Positions 5,182-29,498 of a DNA stretch of 64,000 nt are shown here, one piece after another. Position numbers and translations under genes: made by a program. The notes beneath the pieces are model-generated. The model made no database searches. It was not told where the DNA came from and saw only the letters and a program-made list of their open reading frames with translations. The stretch is from Opitutia bacterium. GTDB lineage: Bacteria > Verrucomicrobiota > Verrucomicrobiia > Opitutales > Opitutaceae. How positions within the stretch are numbered: position 1 is the first letter of the stretch; the number at the start of each line of letters is the position of its first letter. The DNA lies in NCBI GenBank assembly GCA_016217545.1, contig JACRHT010000002.1, forward strand, positions 434,001 to 498,000, read 5' to 3'.

Positions 5182-8100
5182 TCACGCCTCGACCGTCTTC
5201 GGCTTCGCGTTGCGCACGGCGTCGGCGACGGTGGTCGGCAGCGCCTCGGCCTCACCGCTGACCTTGTCGAACTTCATCGAGAGCGTGCGCGACACGCCGC
5301 GCTCCTGCATCGTCACGCCGTAAATCGCATCCGCGGCCGCGATGGTGCTCTTGTTGTGCGTGATGATGATGAACTGCGAGCTGTCGACAAACTGCTTCAG
5401 CAGGTTCGTGAAGCGGTGAATGTTCGACTCGTCGAGCGGCGCGTCGAGTTCGTCGAGCAAGCAGAACGGCGACGGCTTCACCATGTAGAGCGCGAAGAGC
5501 AGCGCGACGGCTGTGAGCGTCTTCTGACCGCCGGAGAGCAGCGTGATGCCCTTGAGCTTCGTGCCCGGGGGCTGCGCGACGATCTCGATGCCGCTCTCGA
5601 GCGGATCCTCGGCCGTGACGAGTTCGATCTCCGCGCGGCCGCCGCCGAACAGGATGTTGAACGTGTAGGCGAAGTTCTTCCGGATCTGCTCGAAGGTGAC
5701 CTTGAACTGCTCGAGCGAGGTGTGGTTGATGTCGTCGATCGCTTTGAGCAGCGCGGCCTTGGCGTTCGTGAGATCGTCGACCTGATTCTTGAGGAATTCG
5801 TAGCGCTGCTTCAGCTCGGAGTATTCCTCGATGGCGACGAGATTGACGGCGCCCATGGAGCCGAGGCGTTGGCGCAGCGCGTCGACCTCGGTCTTGATCG
5901 CTGTCCAGTCGGTGCTCTCCAGCGCGGCCAAGTCGGCTTCGGTCGGCTCGCCCTTGTTTTCCTTCTTCTTTTTGCGGCGGGCGGGCTTCGCGGCGGCTTC
6001 AGGAGCGGGTTGGCCGGGGTCGACGCCCCCGGCTACAGGTTGGCCTTCGCTGGCGACGGTCGCTTCGCTTGGTGCGGCCGCGGGCAAAGCCGCCGGCTGA
6101 CTGCTGACCGCTGAAGGCTGACCACTTCCCTCGTCCTCCTCATCGAGGTCGAGATCCTTCATGCCCTCCGGCTCGTCATCGGAGTGCCAAAGGAGCTTCT
6201 TCCAATCGAGGGTCGAGACGTCGGTTTGGAACTCATGGGTGATTTCCTCGACGAGGAACTGCACGCGGGCGCGCGTCTCCGCGACCTTCACCTCGGTGCG
6301 CGACAGTTCGGACATCGAGCTCTCCGCCTCGGTGCGAATGGAACTCATGCCGGCTTCGACGGAGTTGATTTCCGACTCGATCGACGTGAGTTCGTTGCGC
6401 ACGGACTCGACGTTCTGCTGCGCGATGGAAAGGGTCGTGGCGATTTCCTCGGCGCGGGCGCGCTGGCCGGCGGCCTCGTTCTCCAGCTGCGAAACCTGCT
6501 CGTTCCACGTCTCGATCTCGATCTGGCGCTCGTCGTGCAGGTCGGCGAGCTGCGCGCGGCGGCGCTCCATCTCGGAGAGACCGCGGTCGAGCACTTCGAC
6601 CTTTTGGCGACGCTCGGCGAGCTCGAGGCGGGCTTGCGCGAGGGACTCCTTCTTCTGGTCGCGCTCGGCGCGCTTGCCGGAGATCTCCGCTTCAGTCTGC
6701 GCGATCTTCTGCTTCTGCGCCTCGACTTCGGCCTGCGCCTCGGCGAGCTGCGCCTGCGCCTTCGCGTGGCGGGCGAGCGCCTCGTCGTGGTCACGCTTGA
6801 GGTTGCCCAGCTCGTTCTGCATCCGGCCGAGGCGATTCGCCGCCTCGTCGTGCGCGCGCTGGGCATTCTTTTCCTCGGTGTGGAGCGAGGCGGCGTGTTG
6901 CGAAGCGGCGAGCACGTCCTTGCGCTTCTGCTCGAGCGCCTGCTCCGCCTCGACGAGCGCGGTGTTCAACTTCTCGATAAGCGCCTTCTGTTCGTCGTGC
7001 GCGGTCTGTTCGGCGACGACGGCCTTGCCGGTCTCGCGGAGATCGACTTCGCGCTGCACGATCGAGTTGGCCGGCTTCTTGTGATGGCCGCCGTAAATCA
7101 GGCCGCGCCGGTCGACGAGATCGCCCTTCGGCGTCGCGACCATGAGGAAACTGAATGCCGGGTTCGCCTTCCAGAATTCAAGGAACGCCGTCAAGTCGTC
7201 GGCCACGTAGCAAGCCGACAGCAGGGCCGCCGCCGGATGCGACGGTTCGAGATTGGCCACTGCCTCGGTGGCGGGCTTCAACCCGGCCGGCAGTTCGCTG
7301 TTCGCCGCGCCGCCGCCGAAACCAGGCACCTGCAGGCAAACGCTGCCGATCTTGTCGGTTTCGAGCTGCGCGAGGATTTTCTGCGCGGTGTCGACGTCAG
7401 CAACCGAGATTGCCTCGACCGACGAACCGAGCAGCGCCTCGACGGCCTTCGCCCACTCGACGCGGACCTCGAGGCCTTGCGTGATCGGCACGAATTTTTG
7501 CTCGCCGAAGATCGCGGTGAAACGGCCCTGGAGAATCGCCTTCGCGCCTTCGCCGAAGCCCTCCCATTTTTCGTGGAGCTGCTGGAGCAGCTTCAGGCGC
7601 GCGGTCTTCTGCGCGAGGTTGCGATCGATCTCCTGCAACTTGCGCTGACCTTCGCGGAAATCCTTCGTCGCCTCCTGCAACGCCACCTGCGCCGCCTGCG
7701 CCTCGTTGTTTTGGCGGCTCTGCTCAACGCGGGCTTCCTCGACGCGGGTGCGAGCTTCGTTCAGCGCCTGTGCGGCGGCCTCGACGTTGCCACGCACTTC
7801 CTCGAGGTCGGCGCCGACCTGATCGTATTTGTGCTGGCTCGTGCGGGCATCGACCTCGAGCGAGGAGCTCTCGGTGATGTGGCGCGCGACGGCGCTCTCG
7901 AGTTGGAGGAGATGAAACTTGTCCTGACCGAGCGCCTGCTCGACGCGCGTGAGTTCGCCTTCGAGGACGGCGAGCTCGCGATTCCGCTCCTGGAACACCG
8001 AGTCAGAGCTGCCGAGCAACGAGAGTTGCATCTGCTTGTCCTGCGCGCCGGTGTCGACCTGCGAGGCGAGCTCGCGGATCTGCATCTCGAGTTCGGCGAG

Positions 8101-9072
8101 GTCGTCGTTGCTCGAGGCGAGGCGTTCGGCGAGACCCTGGCGCTTCACGTGCGCCATGTTGGCGGCGTTCTCGGCCTGTTCCTTTTGCGAACGAAGATCG
8201 AAGACGGCCTGCTGCGCGTCCTGCACGCGCTGCATGAGCGCGGAGCGGTGGGCCTTGCGCTCGTCGAGCGCGCGCGTGCGTTCGTCGAGCGTGCTGCGGC
8301 GCGTGTCGGCGTCGTGCTGGAGGCCGCTGACGCGTCCTTCCAGGTCGGCCAGCGCCGTGGACATCTGCTTCCAGTGGTAGTTGCCGTGCGCGAGCGCGAG
8401 GTGGCGCAGGCGGAAGTTGAGGCGCTTGTAGCGCATGGCCTTCGCGGCCTGGCGGCGGAGCGAACCGATCTGGCGGGCGACTTCGTTGATGACGTCGGAC
8501 ACGCGCGCGAGGTTCTGCTCGGTGAGCGCGAGCTTGTTCATCGCCTCGCGACGCTGGCTCTTGTATTTCGTGATGCCGGCGGCCTCCTCGAACACCACGC
8601 GGCGCTCCTCGGGCTTCGACGAGAGGATCTGGTCGATCTGACCCTGCGCCATGATCGAGTAGCTGGTCCGGCCAATGCCGGTGTCCATGAAAAGCTTGTG
8701 GATGTCCTTCAGGCGGCAGGGCTGGCCGTTGAAGTAATACTCGCTCTGCCCGTCGCGGTGGACGCGGCGCGTGATCTCGATCTCGTGGAATTCGCTGCCG
8801 AGCTGCTTTTCGCACTCGGTGAGGAGCAGCGAGACTTCGCAAAACTGCGACGGCTTGCGCGTGTCGGCGCCCTCGAAGATCACGTCCTGCATCTTGCCAC
8901 CGCGGAGGGCCTTCGCGCTCTGCTCGCCGAGCACCCAGCGGATCGAGTCCGCGATGTTGGATTTTCCGCAGCCGTTCGGACCGACGATGGCCGTGACGCC
9001 AGGTTGGAAATTCAGGGTCGTCTGGTCGGCAAAACTCTTGAAACCGTTAAGCTTGAGCGCGCGGAGATGCAT
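5182..9072 (-). CDS. smc: Chromosome segregation protein SMC
   Basis: A 1296-residue condensin ATPase. The ATG at 9070-9072 begins MHLRALKLNGFKSFAD, the standard SMC N-terminus. Walker A is GPNGCGKSN (residues 31-39). The Q-loop/lever region is followed by a long coiled coil, the hinge at about residues 520-680, the return coiled coil, then the ABC signature LLSGGQKTLTAVALL and Walker B FCLLDELDAPLD near the C-terminus. It is about 100 residues longer than typical bacterial SMC. Part of the excess is a non-coiled Pro/Ala/Lys-rich stretch at residues about 975-1050 that contains two repeat elements translated in frame. ATPase residues are intact, so the protein should be functional. No scpA or scpB is adjacent. 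It has its own terminator and is apparently monocistronic. Confidence 0.95.
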   Translation of the reverse strand: MHLRALKLNGFKSFADQTTLNFQPGVTAIVGPNGCGKSNIADSIRWVLGEQSAKALRGGKMQDVIFEGADTRKPSQFCEVSLLLTECEKQLGSEFHEIEITRRVHRDGQSEYYFNGQPCRLKDIHKLFMDTGIGRTSYSIMAQGQIDQILSSKPEERRVVFEEAAGITKYKSQRREAMNKLALTEQNLARVSDVINEVARQIGSLRRQAAKAMRYKRLNFRLRHLALAHGNYHWKQMSTALADLEGRVSGLQHDADTRRSTLDERTRALDERKAHRSALMQRVQDAQQAVFDLRSQKEQAENAANMAHVKRQGLAERLASSNDDLAELEMQIRELASQVDTGAQDKQMQLSLLGSSDSVFQERNRELAVLEGELTRVEQALGQDKFHLLQLESAVARHITESSSLEVDARTSQHKYDQVGADLEEVRGNVEAAAQALNEARTRVEEARVEQSRQNNEAQAAQVALQEATKDFREGQRKLQEIDRNLAQKTARLKLLQQLHEKWEGFGEGAKAILQGRFTAIFGEQKFVPITQGLEVRVEWAKAVEALLGSSVEAISVADVDTAQKILAQLETDKIGSVCLQVPGFGGGAANSELPAGLKPATEAVANLEPSHPAAALLSACYVADDLTAFLEFWKANPAFSFLMVATPKGDLVDRRGLIYGGHHKKPANSIVQREVDLRETGKAVVAEQTAHDEQKALIEKLNTALVEAEQALEQKRKDVLAASQHAASLHTEEKNAQRAHDEAANRLGRMQNELGNLKRDHDEALARHAKAQAQLAEAQAEVEAQKQKIAQTEAEISGKRAERDQKKESLAQARLELAERRQKVEVLDRGLSEMERRRAQLADLHDERQIEIETWNEQVSQLENEAAGQRARAEEIATTLSIAQQNVESVRNELTSIESEINSVEAGMSSIRTEAESSMSELSRTEVKVAETRARVQFLVEEITHEFQTDVSTLDWKKLLWHSDDEPEGMKDLDLDEEDEGSGQPSAVSSQPAALPAAAPSEATVASEGQPVAGGVDPGQPAPEAAAKPARRKKKKENKGEPTEADLAALESTDWTAIKTEVDALRQRLGSMGAVNLVAIEEYSELKQRYEFLKNQVDDLTNAKAALLKAIDDINHTSLEQFKVTFEQIRKNFAYTFNILFGGGRAEIELVTAEDPLESGIEIVAQPPGTKLKGITLLSGGQKTLTAVALLFALYMVKPSPFCLLDELDAPLDESNIHRFTNLLKQFVDSSQFIIITHNKSTIAAADAIYGVTMQERGVSRTLSMKFDKVSGEAEALPTTVADAVRNAKPKTVEA
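6012..6037 (-). repeat. Palindromic repeat (TGTAGCC type) inside smc
   Basis: GCCGGGG (6013-6019) pairs with CCCCGGC (6027-6033), preceded on the minus strand by TGTAGCC. The same TGTAGCCGGGG hairpin occurs in murF at 29097-29121. Both are read in the same frame, giving VAGGVDPGQP here and VAGVADPGPV in MurF. Confidence 0.7.
6096..6123 (-). repeat. Heptanucleotide repeat array inside smc (4 units)
   Basis: On the minus strand there are four consecutive 7-bp units of form TCAGCNN (TCAGCCT is typical in this array). They are translated as part of the QPSAVSSQPAAL linker. The same TCAGCNN unit forms the six-copy array downstream of efp (41448-41489). Confidence 0.75.
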
Positions 9073-9269
9073 TGAGCGGAAAGTGGATAAGTGAGGCTCC
9101 GGCCTCCGTGCCGGCAACGGAAAAAACACGGTCACCCGGACAAGATATTCACAGCAGAAAAGCCTCGCGTTTTGCCGGGCCGTCAGCTGGCCGGACGCTC
9201 AGGCGAGCGTCGCGTCGACACCGGAAATTGCGCGTGCAGAATGCAACTTGAACCACCCTGCAGCGTCTG

Positions 9270-28073: not shown

Positions 28074-29498
28074 TCAGTGCGTGTCGGCGTGGGGATCGAG
28101 GATGGTTTCGAGGCGGTAGCGGCGGCTGCCCTTGAGGAACGCGGTGCCCTTGAAAGACGCGAGACGGGCGCGGACGGGCGCGACGTCGGTGACGACCGCG
28201 ATCTGCGCGGGGTCGTTGCCGTTTTCGAGGAGGCCTTCGCGCAACGCGGCGGCGTGCGTGCCGATCGTGAAAAGGAAATCGCCCGGCCGAAGCAGGATCG
28301 TGCGGCCGAGCTGTTGATGGAACTCCGCCGCCTGCGCGCCGAGTTCCTCCATGCCGCCGAGCACGTAGAGGCGCGGCAGTTCCGGCCGCGCGAGGCTCGC
28401 GAAAGCCGCGATGGCGTCGGTCATCGAGGCGGGATTGGCGTTGTAGAAATCGCAGTAGACCTCCGCCTCCCCCACCCGCTGCATCTCGCCGCGCCATTTC
28501 GACGGCTGCCACGTGGCGAGGCGCTGCTGCAGCGTCGCGTCATCGACGCCGAGTTCGGAGGCGAGCGCGAGAGCGAGCGCGGCGTTTTGCGCCATGCCAC
28601 CGGACACGCGACGGAGAATGAACGTGCGCTTCGCGCCAAGCGTGACCTCGGTGCGATCAGGACGATGCAGGACCGTGAAAACGATCGTCTGTCCGTCGAC
28701 ACGCACCATCGCCTCGTTCGCCGGCACGAGCACGAGCGGGTTCGCGAGCGAACGGAAGGCCTCGTATTGCCAGCACGACACCGGAAAAACCTGCAGGCCG
28801 CCCGCGCGCACGGCGGTGAGCAACTGGACTTTCTCCGCCGCGACGCCATTGAGCGAGCCGAGCTTCTCGAGGTGCGCCGGGCCGACGAACGTCACGATCG
28901 CGTGGTCAGGCTGGATCATGCCCGCGAGGTCGCGCATTTCGCCGGGCATGTTGATGCCGGCCTCGATCACGGCGGCGGCGTGCGCGGCCGGGTCGAGTTG
29001 CGTGAGCGTGAGCGGGACGCCGATGAAGTTGTTGAGATTGCCTTGGGTTTTGAAAACCGGGGAGCTCGGCGTTGTCGCCGGTCTCGCTGAGACCGGGCCG
29101 GGGTCAGCGACCCCGGCTACATCGCCGAGCAGGAGCGCGACGAGGTCCTTCGTCGAAGTTTTGCCGGCGCTGCCGGTGATGCCGACGACGCGGCCCGGGA
29201 AAGCGCGGCGGTGCGCGGCGGCGATGGCTTGAAAGGCGCGGAGCGGATCGGCGACGACGAGTTGCGGAAGCGCGGAGTCGGAAATCTCGCGCGCGACCAG
29301 CGCGGCGGCGGCGCCTTGCGCGGCGGCATCCGCGAGGAAATCGTGGCCGTCGCGTTTGTCGGTCTTCAGCGCGACGAAAACCTGGCCGGCGGACAGCGTG
29401 CGGGTGTCCTGATTGAAGCCCGAAAGCGACGAGACCGGCATCGTTGTCCAACGACCACCGGTCCAAGACGCGAGCGACTGCGGGATGAACTCACGCAT
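28074..29498 (-). CDS. murF: UDP-MurNAc-tripeptide--D-Ala-D-Ala ligase MurF, with repeat-derived insert
   Basis: A 474-residue Mur ligase adding D-Ala-D-Ala to complete the pentapeptide. The N-terminal domain contains DTRTLSAGQVFVALKTDKRDGHDF. The ATP loop is GITGSAGKTSTK (residues 106-117), and TQGNLNNFIGVPLTL, GINMPGEMRDLA and DFYNANPASM are the usual later motifs. Between LLL and TQGNLNN, residues about 126-150 form an unusual Pro/Ala/Ser-rich loop, encoded by two tandem perfect palindromes related to the one in smc. The loop sits just after the P-loop helix, where insertions can be surface-exposed. The ATG overlaps the end of a small ORF (ATGCGTGA). Confidence 0.95.
   Translation of the reverse strand: MREFIPQSLASWTGGRWTTMPVSSLSGFNQDTRTLSAGQVFVALKTDKRDGHDFLADAAAQGAAAALVAREISDSALPQLVVADPLRAFQAIAAAHRRAFPGRVVGITGSAGKTSTKDLVALLLGDVAGVADPGPVSARPATTPSSPVFKTQGNLNNFIGVPLTLTQLDPAAHAAAVIEAGINMPGEMRDLAGMIQPDHAIVTFVGPAHLEKLGSLNGVAAEKVQLLTAVRAGGLQVFPVSCWQYEAFRSLANPLVLVPANEAMVRVDGQTIVFTVLHRPDRTEVTLGAKRTFILRRVSGGMAQNAALALALASELGVDDATLQQRLATWQPSKWRGEMQRVGEAEVYCDFYNANPASMTDAIAAFASLARPELPRLYVLGGMEELGAQAAEFHQQLGRTILLRPGDFLFTIGTHAAALREGLLENGNDPAQIAVVTDVAPVRARLASFKGTAFLKGSRRYRLETILDPHADTH
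29078..29121 (-). repeat. Two tandem palindromes inside murF
   Basis: Hairpin 1: CCGGTCTC (29078-29085) with GAGACCGG (29089-29096). Hairpin 2: GCCGGGGTC (29097-29105) with GACCCCGGC (29109-29117). Both are perfect with 3-nt loops. On the minus strand the element starts TGTAGCC, as in smc at 6037. It encodes MurF residues about 126-141. Confidence 0.8.

Follow-up and report, generated by a model that had tools for sequence, protein, structure and literature searches.

The palindromic stretch within the murF gene of this bacterium is very probably a REPIN, a dimer of GTAG REPs inserted into a tolerant loop of MurF and spread by a RAYT of the same genome. Here the window means the whole 64,000-nucleotide stretch of DNA that was analysed, and G000 the genome that contains it. 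In the proposed mechanism, the REPIN would be non-autonomous mobile DNA consisting of two GTAG-headed REP hairpins arranged tail to tail, and it would be spread by the RAYT, a HUH/Y1 single-strand transposase encoded in the same genome. One copy would have entered the MurF loop between the helix that follows the P-loop and the next strand, presumably while the DNA was single-stranded. Three things would explain its survival: a net addition that preserves the reading frame (54 bp more than at the empty site), entry in the dimer's only stop-free frame, and a loop able to tolerate 18 extra residues.

The REPIN in murF and its family

The host gene murF (window 28074-29498, minus strand) encodes a 474-aa protein with the Mur ligase middle and C domains. 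The core of the insert (29073-29121, minus strand) spans 49 bp and consists of two GTAG-headed REP hairpins placed tail to tail. It encodes 16 residues, V127-T142 (VAGVADPGPVSARPAT). The coding strand reads ...CTC GGC GAT GTA GCC GGG GTC GCT GAC CCC GGC CCG GTC TCA GCG AGA CCG GCG ACA ACG.... Hairpin 1 is TGTA-GCCGGGGTC-GCT-GACCCCGGC and hairpin 2 is CCGGTCTC-AGC-GAGACCGG-CGACA, with stems of 9 and 8 bp, respectively, and 3-nt loops in both. Thus the two 3-nt-loop hairpins that had been noticed near the ATP loop, from the sequence alone, are indeed present, about 11 residues past an unchanged P-loop (GSAGKTS, residues 109-115, 29154-29174, minus strand). The description of them as a palindrome pair needs a correction, since the pair is tail to tail and one head is mutated. 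Arm A (TGTAGCCGGGGTCGCTGACCCCGG, 29098-29121, minus strand) has an intact TGTAG head and matches the genomic family exactly. Arm B (TGTCGCCGGTCTCGCTGAGACCGG, 29073-29096, plus strand), inverted and separated from arm A by 1 bp, retains its stem and has TGTCG as its head, GTAG being changed to GTCG; lacking this GTAG head, the copy may be immobile. DNA folding of the element returns exactly both hairpins (z = -4.3), and RNA folding recovers them too, with a strong fold around the copy (z -4.3). An additional 8-bp inverted repeat flanks the REPIN and lengthens the fold (29064-29071 and 29123-29130, GCTCGGCG / CGCCGAGC); the other copies listed show no such outer palindrome around them. In a structure model of MurF built from 28 sequences, the mean pLDDT is 91, and confidence is lacking mainly at residues 129-142, which score below 50 and are placed between helix 113-123 and strand 148-150. 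The insert is therefore predicted to be a disordered loop, and MurF carrying it presumably stays fully active.

The similarity to smc had also been pointed out. The smc match (6014-6037, minus strand, TGTAGCCGGGGGCGTCGACCCCGG) is real and belongs to the same family, but it is a single, degraded REP and not a pair: it has one mismatch and a 7-nt loop, lacks a partner, and is weaker than the murF copy. It lies in smc (5182-9135, minus strand) and encodes residues from V1034 (VAGGVDPG), so that both genes read the element as GTA GCC GGG (VAG..DPG), in the same frame, as had been proposed. The SMC linker that carries it differs in every relative, varying widely in length and sequence, and in G015 it includes a degraded REP-like stretch; the smc copy would be an older or partly lost single REP inside this variable linker. 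Upstream of the REP, the linker contains a GTCAGC-rich tandem motif (6096-6123, minus strand, GGTCAGCCTTCAGCGGTCAGCAGTCAGC) that is missing in the relative G007. The other seven one-mismatch matches to TGTAGCCGGGG in the window form no hairpin and look like chance.

In the whole G000 genome, TGTAGCCGGGG has 55 matches, versus 4 for the reversed control, and the full REP pattern with up to two mismatches has 127 versus 5. Places in the genome were taken from 100 of the 127 matches, and the stretches around the matches were analysed. Four matches were set aside by eye as chance (C2:466139, C11:42056, C11:282843 and C16:13508); the first of these is VEPGST, a PBP motif that G007 and G006 share unchanged. 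The family consensus is TGTAGCCGG. Most copies form plus-minus pairs with their heads outward, many of them 1-4 bp apart, and the pairs are mostly 49-52 bp long, with a second class of 75-81 bp. Dimers of this second class (C2:311197-311275 in G000 and similar ones; L004, L005, L013) lie within a larger, MITE-like repeat whose outer arms are AT-rich and roughly inverted (..GCGTTTTCAAAAATAA-TGTAG ... CTACA-GAAAAACAGAAAAGGCTCTA..) and which is found only between genes. Three G000 genes, namely purL (C2:577735 and C2:579064), recD2 (C3:205614 and C3:206256) and a CobW-type GTPase gene (C17:915577 and C17:915838), each contain two in-frame short REPINs.

G000 has ten Y1_Tnp genes. One of them, at C4:115716-115991, encodes a RAYT of 153 aa (Pfam Y1_Tnp, E 1.5e-8) with the HUH motif PDHVHFF and the tyrosine motif WLYVRENP, and is bounded on both sides by REPs of the murF family, at 115554-115615 and 116121-116149 (locus C4:115554-116149). 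REPs flanking a RAYT gene are the standard REPIN/RAYT arrangement (PMC3116915, PMC3733652, PMC8266576). We infer that this RAYT moves the murF REPIN family; the link is one of position, and with ten Y1_Tnp genes the choice of the responsible one is a guess. Altogether, the family shows several traits of GTAG REP dimers: a GTAG 5′ foot on a short palindrome (arm A), close inverted REPs, high dispersed copy number, a RAYT flanked by REPs, and presence or absence at the same site between relatives.

The same sites in related genomes

A MurF match was found in 36 of the 38 genomes searched. G007, the closest murF relative (MurF 93% identical), has GGC GGC GCG CCG TCG in place of the insert and is net 54 bp shorter, and most other relatives also have a short loop with no insert. 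The element had been taken for an insertion that is tolerated as a protein linker; its absence from most relatives and the predicted disorder of the MurF loop are both consistent with this. A VAG-DPG linker conserved among relatives with scrambled codons would have pointed the other way, and most relatives have no such linker. The evidence for insertion is presence or absence between species whose proteins differ by at least 7%; the insert could have been lost from G007 instead of never having been there, although most other relatives are without it as well. In G007 the insert is also missing from the ileS-like and purL-like hosts, whose sites are net 63 bp shorter in each case, and from smc.

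Several of these sites are filled by other repeats. In G006 (MurF 89% identical), a different REPIN occupies the same murF site in the same frame (GTAGCGCCGGTCTCCGACCGGCG...CGCCGGTCGGAGACCGGCGCTAC). It belongs to G006's own REPIN family, GTAGCGCCGGTCTCNGACCGGCG (L145:8732-8826 and elsewhere in the G006 genome), which has 193 matches in G006 and 12 in G000 and is nearly absent from the closest sisters of G006. In the lpd loop, G000, G008 and G015 have a murF-family REPIN and G012 an apparent GTAGG-type hairpin; G007, G006 and G002 have short tandem motifs there, and G005 and G009 have little. The tandem motifs (L310, L313, L311) are CTTAAACTTCA(A/G)CCTTCAACTTCAAC in G007 and G006 and of AAAATCG type in G002, so that in-frame translation extends to other short repeats. 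Other palindromes are present at the second purL site in G007 and at the uvrA site in G006. In the G006 uvrA-like gene (L148:9775-12999) a GTGG-headed dimer, GTGGAACGGGTTGACCTCAACCCGTTCC..GCGCTCCAC, lies where the G000 uvrA has a TGTAG REP; GTGG heads were reported for GTAG-20 of Opitutus terrae. The same protein loops are reused by different repeats across species and accept whatever lands in them. Four in-gene copies (sucB, lpd, uup and rlmB-like) share positions in G000 and G008. MurF of G000 is closer to that of G007 and Lpd to that of G008, and the sharing of copies between genomes may reflect gene transfer.

Reading frame and location of short and long dimers

The consensus dimer has stop codons (TAG or TGA) in two of the three frames per strand, leaving only the GTA GCC GGG frame open. 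All in-gene dimers use this frame (28 in G000, 8 in G008 and 18 in other genera), because stop codons close the other two frames and selection on the host gene leaves one. The idea of the sequence-only reading that the element is shaped to be translatable is not borne out: the stop filter explains the frame. In long dimers, too, the GTA frame stays open over the core in 86 of 96 strands (34 of 96 with 45 bp on each side included), yet none of these dimers lies in a gene. Therefore the open frame alone does not decide where a copy is found. The in-gene dimers of all genomes tested are 49, 50, 52, 53, 55, 65 or 67 bp long. Dimers of 48 and 51 bp, in which the second arm would fall into an Arg-rich frame, all lie outside genes, but they are few (four in G015, one in G008).

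To assign copies to genes, flanks were scored by a codon model that had been trained on the stretches retrieved, the genes having no independent annotation; 29 of the 30 host proteins scanned match NCBIfam families at 1e-15, and housekeeping genes predominate among the hosts. Short dimers (up to 70 bp) and long dimers (over 70 bp) were divided after G000 had been seen, and the division was tested on G008. In G000, 26 short dimers are in genes and 4 outside, versus 0 and 18 long ones; the corresponding counts in G008 are 7 and 2 versus 0 and 30 (Fisher p 1e-9 and 2e-6, respectively), so that none of the 48 long dimers of both genomes is in a gene. It is modestly new that short dimers are mostly in genes in G000 and G008 and long ones never. 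A REPIN class specialised for genes was considered and rejected as a general explanation: the pattern is strong in these two genomes, whereas short dimers in other genera are mostly intergenic (18 in, 39 out; G015 10/20, G042 2/9, G045 0/8, G048 4/1, others 2/1), which indicates that the gene preference belongs to the two genomes and not to the element. Random insertion followed by a one-third frame filter predicts 66-79% of copies in genes, depending on coding density. The 33 of 39 short dimers observed in genes in G000 and G008 exceed this proportion only marginally (p 0.009 to 0.28), and for this reason we claim no targeting.

Why short dimers of G000 are mostly in genes may have a historical explanation, which would add to the REPIN/RAYT explanation and not replace it. 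The short REPIN may once have been active everywhere in G000 and G008, after which intergenic copies were lost and in-frame copies, hard to remove precisely, were kept as fossils. Loss of the intergenic copies with retention of the in-gene ones is the simplest reading, which we offer tentatively, as one that may well prove wrong. It is consistent with the in-gene excess in these two genomes compared with the rest, and with the finding that 5 of 9 short dimers of G008 are placed as in G000, versus 2 of 30 long ones, although most long loci could not be compared, their flanks having no counterpart among the fetched stretches. On the other hand, the in-gene stems are nearly perfect (68 of 72 arms) and not decayed, G048 is also mainly in-gene, and the differing affinities of MurF and Lpd mean that gene transfer may explain the sharing. 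A stronger proposal, that short REPINs of this lineage are preferentially kept in, or aimed at, coding sequence, with in-frame copies persisting longer than intergenic ones and unrelated repeats refilling the same loops in different species, so that mobile repeats would continually supply proteins with new linkers, seems to us doubtful.

Far less probable is a selected role of the RNA hairpins or the peptide in MurF and other essential genes, such as translation pausing, mRNA stability or protein regulation. In-gene copies have better preserved stems than long intergenic dimers (a mean of 7.94 versus 7.66 of 8 pairs), the RNA fold around the murF copy is strong, and most hosts are housekeeping genes, but the closest relative is without the insert in murF, ileS, purL and smc, unrelated repeats fill the same loops in sisters, and no pathway is common to the hosts. 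A function specific to MurF and SMC was rejected, the hosts being unrelated. Finally, although loop length is naturally variable among relatives, an ordinary MurF linker that is GC-rich and palindromic by chance is refuted, as nearly as such a thing can be, by the copy number (the same DNA recurs 127 times across the genome, both between genes and inside unrelated proteins) and by the empty site in the closest murF.

Comparison with known repeats

Translated GTAG REPs have precedents. According to Di Nocera et al. 2013 (PMC3733652), in-frame GTAG REP dimers in genes were reported for O. terrae, which has the largest number of intragenic GTAG repeats; over half of the intragenic inserts consist of dimers or groups, which add 20-30 aa; GTAG-19 forms TT dimers 1-2 bp apart; and both uvrA genes of O. 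terrae carry inserts. The murF REPIN resembles these in its GTAG head, short perfect stem, close dimers and in-frame copies. The present study differs from that report in the genome and, as far as its available text goes, in the host genes, murF and smc not being named there, in testing the frame rule, and in comparing short and long dimers and sister species. The same paper describes two Xanthomonas recB genes with different REPs at about the same site, much as in murF of G000 and G006, in another gene and phylum. In a search of the literature for later studies of intragenic REPs in Verrucomicrobiota, the 2013 paper alone proved relevant.

The REPINs and RAYTs of Bertels and Rainey 2011 (PMC3116915) are similar in that inverted REP doublets are the unit and are tied to RAYT genes. 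However, those REPINs are described as extragenic and their commonest doublets are spaced 71 and 110 bp, whereas in murF only 1 bp separates the two REPs and the copy is translated. Rickettsia palindromic elements (RPE) are also palindromic repeats translated in frame in housekeeping proteins, but RPE-4 and RPE-6 belong to a CGTC-tagged superfamily with no known transposase (PMC3733652), while the murF family has a GTAG tag and a REP-flanked RAYT.

The translated REPIN in murF is thus a well-explained case of a phenomenon already described in the relative O. terrae. It is a clean example of mobile hairpins joining essential proteins: close relatives have both occupied and vacant sites, and the translated frame follows from stop codons alone. 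The comparison marks insert-tolerant loops in MurF, dihydrolipoyl dehydrogenase, UvrA and PurL, and annotators should note that VAG-DPG linkers in proteins of Opitutaceae derive from repeats.
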